A DNA stretch of 64,000 nucleotides from an uncultured Aquimarina sp. (GTDB lineage Bacteria > Bacteroidota > Bacteroidia > Flavobacteriales > Flavobacteriaceae), in contig NZ_CANMED010000001.1 of NCBI RefSeq assembly GCF_947496855.1, positions 434,001-498,000 on the forward strand. Direction: 5' to 3'. A program made the position numbers and the translations under genes. This document shows, piece by piece, positions 19,455 to 31,514 of the stretch; positions within the stretch are counted from its first letter, which is position 1, and every line of letters starts with the position of its first letter. The notes under the pieces are model-generated. The model searched no databases. It saw only the letters and a program-made list of their open reading frames with translations, and was not told the origin of the DNA.

Positions 19455-20555
19455 TTAATTTTTTATAAGTTTTACTCCACCATAACTGGTAGAAATGCTA
19501 ATAGTAGCTCCACTATTTTTTTGTCCTCGATACCCTTGATAATCTTTACTGGAGTTTTCTTTATTCTTTTTCATAATACTGATGTCGTCATCAAGGTTGA
19601 TTCCACCATACGAAGTTTTAATAACAAAGTCAAAATTCAGATTACTGCTATAACCGATATCAACACCAGTATAATCAGTTCTTATTGTTACGTTTTTGGT
19701 TGTAGACTCTAAATTTTTAATATCAATAGAACCATAATCAGTGTTGATGTTTACACTATTACTTACATTTCCAATATTTGTATCCAGATAATCTCCATTT
19801 CCTTTAAATACTCCGACATTCTCAACTTTTAAACTTCCATAGTCACAATTATAATTAAGTTCTTTAACCGACATTATCTTAGATTGTGTATAATCCGCAT
19901 TGAGCAGAATTTCATCACCTCTTTCTAAAGTAAAATCAGAATAATCAGCGTTGATTTTTCCATTTTTCATATATCTAATGGTACTATTGTTTGTGTAATC
20001 TATATTTATAGAATTATCATTTCCCATTAATTCACCAACAATTATCTGTCCATAATCACAGTTGATTTTTGCATTACCTTTAATTTTATCAAGCGTAATA
20101 CTTCCGTAATCATTGTTAAGGTTTATGTTGTTAGTAGCAGGAATTTTTACGGTATAGTTAATTTCTAATTTTAAATTATTCCCGCCCCAATCATTGGAAA
20201 ATTTTGACCACCATGATTTTTCATTTTTATCAAAAGTTGTTCTTGCACTAACTAATTGTGAGCTAGCTTCAAAAATTACATCTATATTTTCTAATTTTTT
20301 TATTACTTTTTCCTCATCATTTCCATTAACTTTTATATTAATTTCCATAACAATCCTATCTTTATCCCAAGAAGTAATATCGAGATTCCCATAGTCATTA
20401 CTAATTTTTAGTAAAGCATTACTGTTTACAGTAAATTCTTTTTTGAGTGATTTTTCTTTGGTATATTTCCCTTTTTTTCTAACATCTCCATTTCCAAGCG
20501 AGATTGCAGGAACAAGAAATAATAAGCATATTATTTTATAGTATATTGGTTTCAT
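19455..20555 (-). CDS. Secreted DUF4097-like repeat protein
   Basis: This 366-residue secreted protein has a signal peptide ending near ISLG. A repetitive beta-structure follows in which short units around N-x-D-Y-G or x-D-Y-T occur about eleven times (NNDYGNLDI, NNDYGSITL, NCDYGQIIV, NTDYGSIDI, STSYGGVKL). The pattern is that of DUF4097 / adhesin-like beta-solenoids. Its start overlaps the anti-sigma gene by 20 bases, and the DUF2807 gene follows after 21 bases. Two solenoid-like secreted proteins in one sigma operon suggest a shared envelope role; no function is proven. Confidence 0.75.
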   Translation of the reverse strand: MKPIYYKIICLLFLVPAISLGNGDVRKKGKYTKEKSLKKEFTVNSNALLKISNDYGNLDITSWDKDRIVMEINIKVNGNDEEKVIKKLENIDVIFEASSQLVSARTTFDKNEKSWWSKFSNDWGGNNLKLEINYTVKIPATNNINLNNDYGSITLDKIKGNAKINCDYGQIIVGELMGNDNSINIDYTNNSTIRYMKNGKINADYSDFTLERGDEILLNADYTQSKIMSVKELNYNCDYGSLKVENVGVFKGNGDYLDTNIGNVSNSVNINTDYGSIDIKNLESTTKNVTIRTDYTGVDIGYSSNLNFDFVIKTSYGGINLDDDISIMKKNKENSSKDYQGYRGQKNSGATISISTSYGGVKLIKN

Positions 20556-21099
20556 TTTCTGATAATTTTAATTTGTTGACATTGTTAATTTTTTCTAACA
20601 CTTTTTCTAGTAAAGAAGCACGTTTCTGAAAGTTCTTAATCATCGCGCTGATTACTCTTTTATCATTACTACTTTCTACTAGATCTTTTTTTAGAATTTC
20701 ATAACTAGATTCTAATTTTTCTAATTGTCTCATTGCATCAATAACTAATTCGGTTGTTTCTGCAGATGAATTTTTGTCTATTTCTTCCAGTTGAGTTTTA
20801 ATTGCAACTGTAAAGAAATTTTGGGTTTCCTCCATTTGTGGAGAAACACTTGCTAAATCGGCTTTCTCATTATCACTAAAAATAGGAGCTACCGATATCA
20901 CGCCTATAAGCATTGCAATAGAGGCAGCTAGAGCCAGTGGCTTCATCCAATTTCGCTTCTTAGGTTGTAATGTAACTACCTTATTTTGCTTGTGTAGTTT
21001 TTCTAAAAAACGTAATTTATGATCATCTGATGGTTCAAATACATCAAGTTGATTTTCCATGCGTTCAAATAATTTCTCTATTTCATCTTCGGTTTTCAT
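20536..21099 (-). CDS. Probable membrane anti-sigma factor
   Basis: This 187-residue protein has one membrane helix at about residues 52-72 (LALAASIAMLIGVISVAPIF). A charged cytoplasmic N-terminal part precedes it, and a periplasmic part with helical heptad-like stretches follows. There is no zinc-finger HxxxCxxC motif. It is read as an anti-sigma factor from position: it overlaps the ECF sigma gene by four bases and is the second gene of the unit. Confidence 0.65.
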   Translation of the reverse strand: MKTEDEIEKLFERMENQLDVFEPSDDHKLRFLEKLHKQNKVVTLQPKKRNWMKPLALAASIAMLIGVISVAPIFSDNEKADLASVSPQMEETQNFFTVAIKTQLEEIDKNSSAETTELVIDAMRQLEKLESSYEILKKDLVESSNDKRVISAMIKNFQKRASLLEKVLEKINNVNKLKLSENETNIL

Positions 21100-21647
21100 G
21101 CAACTAATAATTTTTTTCGTAAACTTTCTTTCGCGCGAGAAATAAGTGTACGACAGTTAGAATATGATATATTCAAAATTTCACAGATCTCTTCATAATC
21201 ATATCCTTCTATTAAATGTAATGATAATGCAGTGCTATAACTTTCTTTTAATTCTTTTAATGTATTTAAAACGGCATTCGCTTTAACACTGGTTAAATCT
21301 TCTCTTACAACCCCTTCTGTTTCATCTGTAAGTGCATATTCTACGGTTTCTAAAGGGACCTCACCATAAATATTACGCTTACGAGATATTGTAAGACTCG
21401 AATTGATAACTATTTTTTTTAACCAAGCTCCAAACAATTTACCGTCCTCTAACATTGATAACTTTGTGAATGCTGTTAGAAAAGCCTCCTGCATTATGTC
21501 CTCAGCTTCTGCAGAATCCTTTATAATCCTAAAGGCACTATTGTACATAACTTTATAATATCGATTATAAATTTCCATTTGCGCTCCCTGATCGGACTTA
21601 CGGCATCTTTCTACCAGTTGCTCGGTATTTAGTTTGGTTAGTGTCAA
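21096..21647 (-). CDS. ECF-type RNA polymerase sigma factor
   Basis: This 183-residue protein has sigma region 2 (YKVMYNSAFRIIKDSAEAED, then IMQEAFLTAF) and region 4 with the helix-turn-helix (YDYEEICEILNISYSNCRTL). This two-domain layout is typical of ECF sigma factors. The start must be TTG at 21647: an in-frame stop lies shortly upstream and no ATG precedes region 2. It heads a unit with an anti-sigma-like gene and two secreted repeat proteins, and probably drives its own operon in response to an envelope signal. Confidence 0.9.
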   Translation of the reverse strand: MTLTKLNTEQLVERCRKSDQGAQMEIYNRYYKVMYNSAFRIIKDSAEAEDIMQEAFLTAFTKLSMLEDGKLFGAWLKKIVINSSLTISRKRNIYGEVPLETVEYALTDETEGVVREDLTSVKANAVLNTLKELKESYSTALSLHLIEGYDYEEICEILNISYSNCRTLISRAKESLRKKLLVA

Positions 21648-21865: not shown

Positions 21866-24316
21866 ATGACGAAATCCAAATTAACAACTCTTGACAGTTT
21901 GTCATTACAAGGAATAAATGAAGATGCCGAATTAATACCTTTAATGACTCCTGAAGACGAGGAGGAAATAGATAAAGAAGATTTACCAGAAACTCTCCCT
22001 ATATTACCACTTAGAAATACGGTGCTTTTTCCTGGTGTGGTAATTCCTATAACAGCTGGTAGAGATAAATCAATAAAGCTACTAAATGAAGCCAATAATG
22101 GAAATAAAACTATTGGTGTCGTTTCTCAAAAAGAAGAAGATGTAGAAAATCCGACATCAAAAGATATAAATAAAGTTGGAGTAGTGGCAAGAATCTTAAG
22201 GGTTCTTAAGATGCCTGATGGAAATACTACCGTTATTTTACAAGGTAAAAAGAGGTTTAAGATCGATGAAATTTTAGAAGAAGACCCTTATATCAGAGCA
22301 AAAGTATCAGAAGTTCCTGAAAATAGGCCTTCTAAGGAGAATCAGGAATTTAATACAATTATTGATTCTATTAAGGAATTAGCTTTAGAGATTATTAAAG
22401 AAAGTCCTAATATTCCTTCTGAAGCATCTTTTGCTATAAAAAATATAGAAAGCAATTCCTTTTTGATCAATTTTGTTTCTTCTAATCTTAATTTACCTGT
22501 TGATGAGAAACAAAAAATATTAGAAATAAATAGTATAAAAGATAGAGCACTTGCTACACTGAAGTATATGAATCTAGAGTTTCAGAAATTGGAACTTAGA
22601 AATGATATTCAAAACAAGGTGCAGCATGATATGAGTCAACAGCAACGTGAATATTTTCTTCATCAACAGATGAAAACCATTCAGGAAGAGCTTGGCGGAG
22701 TATCACATGAAGATGAAATAGAGGAGATGCAAGCCCGTAGTAAGGATAAAAAGTGGGATGAAGATGTAAAGAATCACTTTGACAAAGAATTATCTAAAAT
22801 GCGGCGTATGAATCCGCAGGTAGCGGAATACTCTATTCAACGAAACTATCTTGATCTATTTCTAGATTTACCTTGGAACGAGTTTAGTAAGGATAAATTT
22901 GATCTGAAACGTGCAAAGAAAATTCTTGATCGTGATCATTATGGATTAGATGAAGTAAAAAAACGTATTATCGAGTATTTAGCAGTATTGAAGCTTCGTA
23001 ATGATATGAAATCTCCAATATTATGTTTGTATGGACCTCCAGGAGTTGGTAAGACCTCTTTAGGGAAATCTATTGCAGAAGCGCTAGGTCGAGAATATGT
23101 TCGTATTTCGTTAGGGGGATTGCGTGATGAGGCTGAGATTAGAGGGCATAGAAAAACGTATATCGGTGCGATGCCGGGTAGAATTGTTCAAAGTCTTAAA
23201 AAAGCAGGAACTAGTAATCCTGTATTTGTTTTAGATGAAATAGATAAACTTTCTGTAGGAAATCAAGGAGATCCTTCTTCCGCTTTATTAGAAGTTTTGG
23301 ATCCTGAACAAAACTCTGAGTTCCATGATAATTTCTTAGAAATGGGATTTGACCTTTCTAAAGTAATGTTTATAGCTACTTCTAATAGCCTGAATACGAT
23401 ACAACCCGCATTACGTGATCGTATGGAGATTATTAATGTAACTGGATATACAATCGAAGAAAAAGTAGAAATAGCAAAACAACATTTACTTCCAAAACAA
23501 TTGGTAGAACATGGATTAGATAAGTCACATCTTAAAATAGGAAAAGCTCAATTAGAAAAGATCGTAGAGGGATATACTAGAGAATCAGGAGTAAGAGGCT
23601 TAGAAAAGCAGATAGCAAAAATGGTGCGATATGCAGCTAAGAACATTGCAATGGAAGATTCATACAATGTAAAGGTTAGTAATGAAGATGTTATAGAAGT
23701 ACTTGGAATTCCTAGATTAGAGCGTGACAAATATGAAAACAATGAGGTAGCAGGTGTAGTAACAGGTTTAGCTTGGACGAGTGTAGGAGGTGATATTTTG
23801 TTTATAGAATCTATTCTTTCTAAAGGAAAAGGAAACCTTACAATAACTGGTAACTTAGGTAAAGTGATGAAAGAATCTGCCACTATTGCTATGGAATATA
23901 TTAAGGCAAATGCAGATATACTAGGAATCAATCAGGATATTTTTAGTAACTATAATGTTCATATTCACGTTCCAGAAGGAGCAACTCCCAAAGATGGACC
24001 AAGTGCGGGTATAACGATGTTAACTTCGTTAGTATCATTATTTACACAAAGAAAGGTAAAAAAGAGCATTGCGATGACCGGAGAGATTACATTAAGAGGT
24101 AAGGTATTGCCAGTAGGAGGGATTAAAGAAAAAATTCTAGCTGCAAAAAGAGCACATATCAAAGAAATATTGCTTTGTGAAGATAATAAAAGAGATATTG
24201 AAGAAATAAAATCAGAATATCTTAAAGGATTGAAATTTCACTACGTAAAAGAAATGAGTGAAGTATTAGAATTAGCATTGACTAAAGGCAAGGTTAATAA
24301 TGCTAAAAAACTATAA
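21866..24316 (+). CDS. lon: ATP-dependent Lon protease
   Basis: This 816-residue protein is full length for Lon. The N-terminal substrate domain begins at [19 protein letters not shown]. The AAA+ module has Walker A GPPGVGKT (Lys396) and Walker [10 protein letters not shown]. The protease domain has the Ser-Lys dyad in PKDGPSAG (Ser713) and in GGIKEK (Lys756). It degrades misfolded and regulatory cytosolic proteins. It stands alone, facing away from the sigma operon, and is followed by a strong terminator at 24430. Confidence 0.97.
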
Positions 24317-24429: not shown

Positions 24430-24470
24430 AGATCTATTAGGTTTTAAAAACCTAATAGATCTTTTTTTTA
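24430..24470 (+). terminator. Intrinsic terminator of lon
   Basis: The arms at 24430-24445 and 24447-24462 are perfect inverted repeats (AGATCTATTAGGTTTT and its complement), giving a stem of about 13 pairs once a small loop is allowed. A run of eight T follows at 24462-24469. Confidence 0.9.
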
Positions 24471-24652
24471 AATAATTAAACGCTTGAATCTATTGATTCT
24501 ATTGCATATTTATGATTTTTAGATAATTACTTAAAAAAAAATAGAATAAATATGTAACAAATTTTAACAATGCTCGTCATATATGTAAACAGTAGAGAAA
24601 TTAACACTATATTTTAGTAGATCATCAAAAGTTGAATTGATATTGAAAGGGG

Positions 24653-24680
24653 GTTCATCCTTATACATCTTGGGATGGGT
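24653..24680 (+). ncRNA. Hairpin element, copy 1
   Basis: The arms GTTCATCC (24653-24660) and GGATGGGT (24673-24680) enclose a 12-base loop TTATACATCTTG. An outer AAAG/CTTT pairing may extend the stem. The loop matches 9 to 10 of 12 bases with the element at 24767, and the stem changes keep pairing. This supports a conserved RNA structure rather than chance; the family is not identified. Confidence 0.45.
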
Positions 24681-24766
24681 ACTTTTAAAATGAAGTATTA
24701 TATTTAACTAGCAATCAAAAACGTAATTTACTTTACTAATAATTACAAGTTCGAACAATATTTTTT

Positions 24767-24802
24767 GAGCGTTTATCCTGATACTACTTGGGATGAGCGC
24801 TT
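24767..24802 (+). ncRNA. Hairpin element, copy 2
   Basis: The arms GAGCGTTTATCC (24767-24778) and GGATGAGCGCTT (24791-24802) pair over 12 positions including two G-U pairs. They enclose the loop TGATACTACTTG. Several T follow, so this copy could also act as a terminator. It lies about 114 bases after copy 1 and has the same loop plan T-K-ATAC-W-W-CTTG. Confidence 0.45.
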
Positions 24803-25037
24803 TTCTTATTTTATAGGGTAAATCAACCATTTTAGTCCACTTTTTTTGAGGTTTACGCGCATCAAAAAGTTGTATAAATATCTTACTTTTATTCCGTAAA
24901 CCAGACTTTGTTTTTCAATACATGTTTTTATCAACCAACATATATATTACACGTGAAAAACTTTTAAAACCTAATTTTGAAATGTCACACCTATAGTATT
25001 CCTCGATAGGTTCATTAGCTAAAGAGTTTTGGTTAGT

Positions 25038-25068
25038 CGGGATTGTTAAAAGCAATCCCGTTTTTTTT
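25038..25068 (+). terminator. Intrinsic terminator before rlmI
   Basis: CGGGATTG (25038-25045) pairs perfectly with CAATCCCG (25053-25060), followed by eight T. No gene ends just upstream on this strand, so it probably closes a non-coding transcript or attenuates a leader of the next gene. Confidence 0.85.
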
Positions 25069-25114
25069 GTCATATATTCCCATAAGCTAAAAAATATCAT
25101 TAATCTTGCAGACT

Positions 25115-26329
25115 ATGAATATAGTATCTGATATAAAGACTCAAAGATTGGCAATAAAACTCAAACCTTCTGCAGAAAAGATGGTGAAACGTGGACATCC
25201 TTGGATTTTTGAAAACAGTATTCTTAAACAAAATGTAAAAGGAAATGCCGGTGACTTAACTATTATATACGATCATAAAAAGAATATAATATTGGCCATA
25301 GGACTATATGATCCCCACTCTCCAATTAGGATTAAACTGATCCAGTTTAAAAAAGCTGCACAGATTAATAGTGATTGGTTTGGTAATAAAATACTGGAAG
25401 CTTATGCTATAAGGAAACCTTTACTAGAGACTGATACGAATAGCTATAGATTATTGTTTGGTGAGAATGACCAGATGCCTGGTTTTATAGCGGATGTTTA
25501 TGATACGGTTTTGGTTATAAAATTATATTCTCATATTTGGTTTCCATATCTTAATTGGATAGTCCCTCATTTGATTAAACAATCTAATTGCAAAACGGTT
25601 GTGGTTAGATTAAGTAGGTCTTTACAAACGATAGGGGGGACTTATGGTCTGGAAGATGGTAAGATAATTTATGGAAATCTGGAGAATGAAGTTGTAGTTT
25701 TTAAAGAACATGGTGTCTTATTTTCTGCTAATGTAATTAAAGGACATAAAACTGGTTATTTTCTGGATCATAGACATAATCGTAAACGAGTAGGAGATTT
25801 ATCTAAAGGAAAAACAGTATTAGACGTTTTCTCATATGCAGGTGGATTTTCTATTCATGCTTTAGCTGGTGATGCAAAAGAAGTTATAAGTTTGGATATT
25901 AGTAGACAAGCATTGGAAATGGCAGAAGATAATGCTTCTTTAAATGAACATTCAGGAAATCATACTATTATGGTCTCGGATGCTTTTGAAGGTTTACAGG
26001 GGTTAATCCATCAGAAAAAGAAATTTGATGTTGTTGTGATTGATCCACCATCTTTTGCGAAAAGAGAAAGTGAAATTAAAAAAGCTAAAAACAGTTATGC
26101 CAGATTGACTAAACTTGGTGCGCAATTGGTAAAAACTAAAGGAATTTTAGTCTTAGCTTCTTGTTCATCAAGAGTAGTAGCAGAAGAGTTTTTTGAAATT
26201 TGTGAAGAAAATATTTCTAATACTGGAAAAGGATTTAAATTATTAGATAAGACATATCACGATATTGATCATCCTATCACTTTTCCAGAAGGTGCGTATC
26301 TGAAATGTGGATATTATCAAATAGATTAG
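25115..26329 (+). CDS. rlmI: 23S rRNA m5C methyltransferase RlmI-like, class I SAM enzyme
   Basis: This 404-residue protein has an N-terminal PUA domain (about residues 10-85, with KRGHPWIFENSI) and a C-terminal Rossmann methyltransferase domain. SAM motif I is LDVFSYAGGFSIHAL, motif IV is VVIDPPSFAK, and the ASCSS segment follows. This is the RlmI/YccW group, which methylates a cytosine of 23S rRNA. The frame opens at TTG 25106, but ATG 25115 is preferred. It appears to be a single-gene unit. Confidence 0.88.
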   Translation: MNIVSDIKTQRLAIKLKPSAEKMVKRGHPWIFENSILKQNVKGNAGDLTIIYDHKKNIILAIGLYDPHSPIRIKLIQFKKAAQINSDWFGNKILEAYAIRKPLLETDTNSYRLLFGENDQMPGFIADVYDTVLVIKLYSHIWFPYLNWIVPHLIKQSNCKTVVVRLSRSLQTIGGTYGLEDGKIIYGNLENEVVVFKEHGVLFSANVIKGHKTGYFLDHRHNRKRVGDLSKGKTVLDVFSYAGGFSIHALAGDAKEVISLDISRQALEMAEDNASLNEHSGNHTIMVSDAFEGLQGLIHQKKKFDVVVIDPPSFAKRESEIKKAKNSYARLTKLGAQLVKTKGILVLASCSSRVVAEEFFEICEENISNTGKGFKLLDKTYHDIDHPITFPEGAYLKCGYYQID

Positions 26330-31181: not shown

Positions 31182-31514
31182 GGTTATTTAATTAATCTTT
31201 TATACCTAACTAAAACTGCTTCTTGTGCGTTTTATTATATTTTCACCTACTAAACTTTTCATATCGAATTCTTAAAAATTGTTAAAAAAAATTGTTAAAA
31301 TTAATATACCGTACTATTTTTACGGTAAATTTATTGCTTTGTTATTATTAATAAACTGAATAATAATACTTTAATGTTTTTTCTAGTATGATTGAAAGAT
31401 TCTTATTCGAAACTATTTTTTTTATTGTTGTAACGATATTAAAAATGTGTCGTCTTATTATAAAGCAAAACCCTGAATCAATTTTACTTTAAATTTAAAA
31501 ATTTTTGAAAGTTC
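31182..31514. other. Divergent promoter region
   Basis: 333 bases between divergent OmpA and M23 genes. ACCGTA and TACGGT near 31306-31325 form a short inverted repeat around a T-rich centre. Nothing else is clear. Confidence 0.45.

Follow-up and report, generated by a model that had tools for sequence, protein, structure and literature searches.

Between the lon and rlmI genes (21866–24316 and 25106–26329) of an uncultured Aquimarina sp. of the Flavobacteriaceae lie two RNA hairpins with almost the same loop, which raises the question of what transcript they belong to and what they do. The sequence studied here (the window) comprises 64,000 nucleotides (nt) of contig NZ_CANMED010000001.1 in assembly GCF_947496855.1 (positions 434,001 to 498,000, forward strand), and coordinates are given as window positions. 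A first-pass annotation of the window had reported the hairpins as a selected RNA structure; it overlooked both the promoter in front of them and the role of the second hairpin as terminator of the transcript, and it proposed no function. We predict that the pair is part of a single-copy small RNA (sRNA) gene, mainly of the genus Aquimarina, which extends over ~24553–24812 (promoter through terminator) and has a putative promoter of the type used by extracytoplasmic function (ECF) sigma factors.

Two related hairpins, one of which is a terminator

Both hairpins are present where they had been placed, and their inner core ATCC-TKATACWWCTTG-GGAT, described earlier as common to the two, is identical at 24657–24676 and 24775–24794. 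With up to three mismatches allowed, these are the only matches to the core pattern in the window, with 0.07 expected from shuffles, and 2 of 100 window shuffles likewise gave two matches. The same search of the complete genome gave 37 matches versus 19 for the reversed pattern, with only the two known sites free of mismatches, and a third hairpin was found in this genome neither by pattern search nor with the covariance model described below. Predicted folding was strong for hairpin 2 (z-score −6.85, with none of 200 shuffles as good) and only moderate for hairpin 1 (z-score −1.74, 9/200 shuffles as good). The outer stems differ in ways that preserve pairing, as had been noted. The "12-base loop" ascribed to both copies holds as a shared sequence, but not as a fully open loop, as RNAalifold places U-G, G-U and A-U pairs within it and leaves an apical loop of 6 nt.

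The terminators previously seen on both sides of the region were recovered in a terminator scan of the window (24430–24462 and 25038–25060), which also counted hairpin 2, together with its U-rich tail, among the terminators, something that had gone unnoticed. The ten bases past the stem contain eight T for hairpin 2, while hairpin 1 is followed by a short T-run (five T in ten bases) and is no longer a good terminator. No coding frame in the transcript was common to the 20 species compared, and together with the terminator scan and the T counts this points to a separate noncoding transcript that ends at an intrinsic terminator of its own (Table 1). A scan with Rfam 15, which the first-pass annotation had advised along with the building of a new covariance model, gave no window matches at gathering score, and none of the 12 matches at E≤10 overlapped 24553–24812.

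Conservation and covariation in the genus Aquimarina

A DNA search of 52 genomes of the same genus, its own included, showed the region to be 77–88% identical over 310–338 bases in ten others, with weaker matches in nine further genomes. After orienting, an alignment of 20 loci contained the conserved blocks TGTAACAA and CGTC, the latter 16 bases past TGTAAC, upstream of hairpin 1. Of the 52 genomes, 30 gave strong matches to the covariance model of the hairpin (R1; E<1e-8), seven gave weak ones (E 2e-6 to 0.01) and 15 gave none. All 30 genomes with a strong match (20 from the DNA alignment and 10 found by R1 alone) have TGTAAC-N16-CGTC upstream of the hairpin. A scan of named genomes yielded 26 records (25 Aquimarina and one Bacteroidia metagenome-assembled genome, MAG), 25 of them with the promoter, while the 26th record ends 99 bases upstream of the hairpin; these records partly repeat the 52-genome set and are therefore only partly independent. 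A lack of other genomic copies, which had been named as an observation that would speak against a selected structure, is thus the case within the own genome but not across the genus.

In an alignment of 54 distinct hairpins fitted to the model, both-sided changes were seen at 9/16 stem pairs and 95.5% of cells were paired; none of 500 shuffles reached any of five measures, and pairing dropped to 31–57% when the partner was slid by 1–3 columns. As this alignment was fitted to the structure, it is relevant that MAFFT alignments agree, with both-sided changes at 5/16 pairs for hairpins 1 and 2 mixed, at 6/17 pairs for hairpin 1 alone and at 7/16 pairs when anchored on the promoter. The covariation score and the percentage paired were not reached by any of 500 shuffles in all four alignments. 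The margins were weaker for the two counting measures, both-sided pairs and pair types, in the mixed and hairpin 1 MAFFT alignments (reached by 9–32 of 500 shuffles), compared with 0/500 in the promoter-anchored and model-fitted alignments. Across alignments, true partners paired at 92–96% and slid partners (1–3 columns) at 31–59%.

The loop UGAUACnnCUUG changes little across the hairpins. Among 63 hairpins the UGAUA and CUUG around the tip are near-fixed, 11 hairpins have U for the C that follows UGAUA, and the two positions in between are variable; mean column identity was 0.89–0.91 for the loops, versus 0.69 for the spacer and 0.59 for the tail. These comparative data support the earlier claim that the RNA structure is selected, and the predicted RNA itself is well supported by its evolution.

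The promoter motif and its candidate sigma factor

The motif TGTAAC-N16-CGTC occurs at 16 sites in the 5.8-Mb genome, versus three sites for the reversed pattern. Ten of the 16 sites lie 8–63 nt before an open reading frame (ORF) of at least 60 amino acids (aa). Of the other six, one belongs to the RNA described here and one is followed by short ORFs (L113); two stand farther upstream, at 188 nt from an ORF (L123) and at 141 nt from an ECF sigma factor gene (L124), one falls within a gene (L116), and the last has no ORF nearby (L121). The genes behind the motif encode, among others, M23/LysM and M61 peptidases, MacB/FtsX and ABC proteins, a DUF4870 protein, a beta-lactamase-family protein, and CarboxypepD_reg and outer-membrane barrel proteins.

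The sigma factor encoded at L124 matches NCBIfam family NF058625 (GFO_1088/PG0214) with 223.9 bits (cut-off 130). When 31 genomes of the family were searched, a GFO_1088/PG0214 sigma factor was present at E≤1e-30 in 27, and the motif lies at most 250 nt upstream of the sigma gene in 23 of these, with no match elsewhere in the 27 sigma-gene stretches on either strand. This is good sequence evidence that the predicted promoter motif belongs to this sigma factor, which would be autoregulated, and it strongly suggests that the GFO_1088/PG0214 sigma factor uses the TGTAAC-N16-CGTC promoter, a consensus that can now be offered for a sigma factor widespread in the family. The ECF-type promoter stands at a fixed place upstream of the hairpin in the 30 genomes with a strong match, as expected of an ECF-sigma-dependent sRNA.

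Another copy of the motif within the window (31429–31454, plus strand) is located 60 nt before an M23/LysM peptidase gene (L112). Upstream of lon (19455–21647, minus strand) the window also contains a different ECF-type sigma factor gene, scoring 79.3 bits with the GFO_1088 model (cut-off 130), followed by genes for a 187-aa protein without NCBIfam match and a 366-aa protein. In several genera the same ECF promoter is found before short, partly repeated ORFs (L113, with the motif at ~1501, L131, L133, L137, L144 and L146), which encode peptides of ~28 residues with a start resembling MRTLDNNQI and with NAKRRFR or NKRRYR at the end; the promoter there has ATAGTACTGTAAC or a similar sequence.

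Forms with one and two hairpins

We applied R1 to 38 loci, 35 from the genus or the MAG and three from outside, and found a single hairpin in 14 of them and a pair in the other 24, where the two copies are 65–155 nt apart (mostly ~120 nt). The 14 single and 24 last hairpins have 7–9 T in the ten bases past the stem, compared with 2–6 T for the 24 upstream copies. As these ranges do not overlap, the last hairpin keeps its terminator tail, and the upstream copy has been retained though its tail was lost. On the rlmI tree, the history of one- and two-hairpin forms needs three changes, and the doublet may have had a single origin, which is compatible with this tree.

Matches outside the genus

In 299 genomes of the family, R1 gave matches in 34 at E≤0.01, which were mostly weak and terminator-like. 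A second model combining the promoter with hairpin 1 (R2) was used on 397 family genomes, and 189 of these had a match at E≤0.1. Inspection by eye of 29 R2 loci (L127–L155) showed that nearly all represent the promoter before apparent coding genes, with only L127 and L128 looking homologous and L130 hard to place. In one genome of another genus (G240) the promoter lies upstream of rlmI and is followed by three hairpins as seen by eye, of which R1 matches only the last (28.4 bits), and the middle one keeps UUGAUACUCUUGA on an altered stem. Another genome (G268) has two hairpins with AGTC replacing CGTC, and in a third (G052) the hairpin is present without the promoter. In a sample of 30 genomes from outside the genus, none of the ten with rlmI had the promoter upstream of that gene.

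At one R2 locus from another genus (L130 in G324, at ~1501), ~140 nt separate the same promoter from a terminator, with no obvious gene and an unrelated hairpin as judged by eye. This is possibly a non-homologous sRNA from the same promoter class, and other genera may drive unrelated short RNAs from this promoter, with L130 as a candidate.

Possible mode of action

RNA polymerase with a GFO_1088/PG0214-family ECF sigma factor, apparently one that responds to envelope stress, would start at TGTAAC-N16-CGTC and stop at hairpin 2, which would give a noncoding RNA of ~220 nt that carries the same stem-loop twice, hairpin 1 being a second copy of the contact site that has lost termination. With the sigma factor active, the RNA would be induced together with the envelope regulon and would act in trans via its loops and nearby single-stranded parts, most probably by pairing with mRNAs and lowering envelope-protein synthesis; it would then be the negative, noncoding arm of a regulon of which the coding members are mostly envelope genes. 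While the limits of the gene, its promoter class, structure and conservation are established at the sequence level, we give an about even chance to the proposal that this is an ECF-sigma-dependent, trans-acting sRNA which works like MicA and RybB, with no relatedness claimed. More tentatively, and with the balance somewhat against it, the terminator hairpin may itself be the active unit and its loop the contact, where duplication of the terminator and erasure of the upstream U-tract have provided two contact sites per transcript for the noncoding arm of the GFO_1088/PG0214 regulon.

Several points weigh against the proposed ECF-sigma-dependent, trans-acting sRNA. An exact search for the loop complement CAAGnnGTATCA gave ten non-self sites versus three for the reversed sequence and no convincing mRNA target; one site falls among codons 1–25 for a protein that looks exported (L194) and another is 122 nt before an ORF (L200). 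The best of 18 antisense candidates with three mismatches (L008) lies 72 nt past a start. In the RNAalifold structure the loop is partly within the stem, which would hinder pairing with mRNA, and both the transcript and the link between sigma factor and promoter are predicted from sequence. Finally, 22 of the 52 genus genomes are without a strong hairpin match, and hence the RNA is not universal in the genus.

The absence of a convincing mRNA target would fit an RNA that binds protein instead. CsrB and RsmZ are sponge RNAs with repeated stem-loops and a fixed loop, which titrate an RNA-binding protein, and the RNA described here resembles them in that its stem-loop is repeated, varies in copy number and presents a near-fixed loop on a stem that covaries. 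It differs in that there are only one or two copies and no known partner protein, and in that the GGA is not conserved: the triplet sits in the 3' strand of the stem and not in the loop, and in about a quarter of the hairpins its first G is replaced by A, with a matching change in the base it pairs with. We regard protein titration as unlikely. The hairpins could also be terminators only, with the last one ending the RNA while the upstream one survives as an inherited relic that has no separate function; the last hairpin is indeed a terminator in every form, and GC-rich terminators of broadly similar build are found in other family genomes as weak R1 matches. This is difficult to reconcile with loop letters that are near-fixed while spacer and tail diverge, and with an upstream copy that retains loop and covarying stem despite its lost T-run, which makes it rather improbable.

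The genomic context bears on whether the RNA acts in cis. Within the stretches examined, 24 of the 30 same-genus loci have rlmI downstream in the same orientation, and so does G240, as would be expected of a cis-acting leader or attenuator through which the sigma promoter drives rlmI via a regulated terminator. However, rlmI is ~2.2 kb downstream in L156, L168 and L180, an opposite-strand gene comes first in L034 (apparently from the same genome as L156), another gene is next in L070, no gene follows for ~500 nt in L079, and in the window a further terminator (25038–25060) intervenes. The RNA is thus not always found directly upstream of rlmI on the same strand; the varying distance and context of rlmI and the intervening terminator make an independent sRNA likelier than a leader, for which we see only a slight chance, and the variation in flanking genes favours action in trans. 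A small encoded peptide is the least credible of these alternatives and very improbable: one clade (L033, L034, L035, L037, L038, L039) has a 20-codon ORF in common, but in the remaining 14 of 20 species, with the window among them, the best ORFs differ in frame, start and sequence, and alignment gaps are often not in multiples of three.

Relation to known small RNAs

To our knowledge, little work on small RNAs of the Bacteroidota extends beyond a few model genera. The enterobacterial sRNAs MicA, RybB and MicL depend on sigma-E and share with the RNA proposed here their small size and noncoding nature, an ECF promoter, an intrinsic terminator and a place beside a coding envelope regulon. They differ from it in that the part conserved here is the terminator hairpin with its duplicate rather than a 5' seed, and no kinship is claimed.

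Within the family, an ECF-type motif that contains a CGT box (SM6) is described for Flavobacterium psychrophilum; the sRNA Rfp11 has a promoter of this type, and the same promoter list includes an ECF sigma/anti-sigma pair (PMC9723704). As far as that description goes, Rfp11 resembles the RNA reported here in its ECF-type promoter, strong predicted structure and conservation in other species (PMC9723704), a likeness of published description and not of compared sequences, and it indicates that this kind of RNA is already known in the family. Few R1 or R2 matches outside Aquimarina, in the 299 and 397 family genomes respectively, looked homologous. Among the matches listed in a search of open-licence literature by titles and beginnings of abstracts, there was no recognisable paper on this RNA or on the sigma factor assignment.

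Across more than 30 genomes, one predicted sRNA can here be connected with a candidate sigma factor and its promoter, with a coding regulon and with a structure that covaries, which makes direct experiment possible. The case also shows a terminator hairpin in duplicate of which one copy no longer terminates. If the more tentative of the two readings is true, a conserved ECF sigma factor of the Bacteroidota would have a noncoding arm in Aquimarina that was strengthened by terminator duplication.

Layout of the locus

Table 1. Predicted features of the sRNA gene and its upstream boundary (window positions).
Feature	Position	Strand	Basis and details
Intrinsic terminator after lon, between lon and the RNA gene	24430..24470	+	Terminator scan; fold z-score −6.44
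Predicted ECF-sigma promoter TGTAAC-N16-CGTC	24553..24578	+	−35 at 24553–24558, −10 at 24575–24578; conserved upstream of hairpin
Predicted noncoding transcript, ~220 nt	24586..24812	+	Start inferred from promoter, end from terminator
Hairpin 1	24645..24690	+	R1 E 1.6e-14; stem 24647–24686; loop region UUAUACAUCUUG at 24661–24672; covariation
Hairpin 2, intrinsic terminator of the RNA	24763..24808	+	R1 E 1.1e-15; stem 24767–24802; loop region UGAUACUACUUG at 24779–24790; fold z-score, terminator scan
U-rich terminator tail, overlapping the last stem bases	24801..24814	+	Sequence, T counts

Past hairpin 2 there is another conserved noncoding stretch (24838–25068, plus strand), which in ten aligned loci of the clade to which the window belongs reaches from ACTTTTTTTGAGGTTTAC to the terminator before rlmI; it could represent a further short transcript or else a promoter region.
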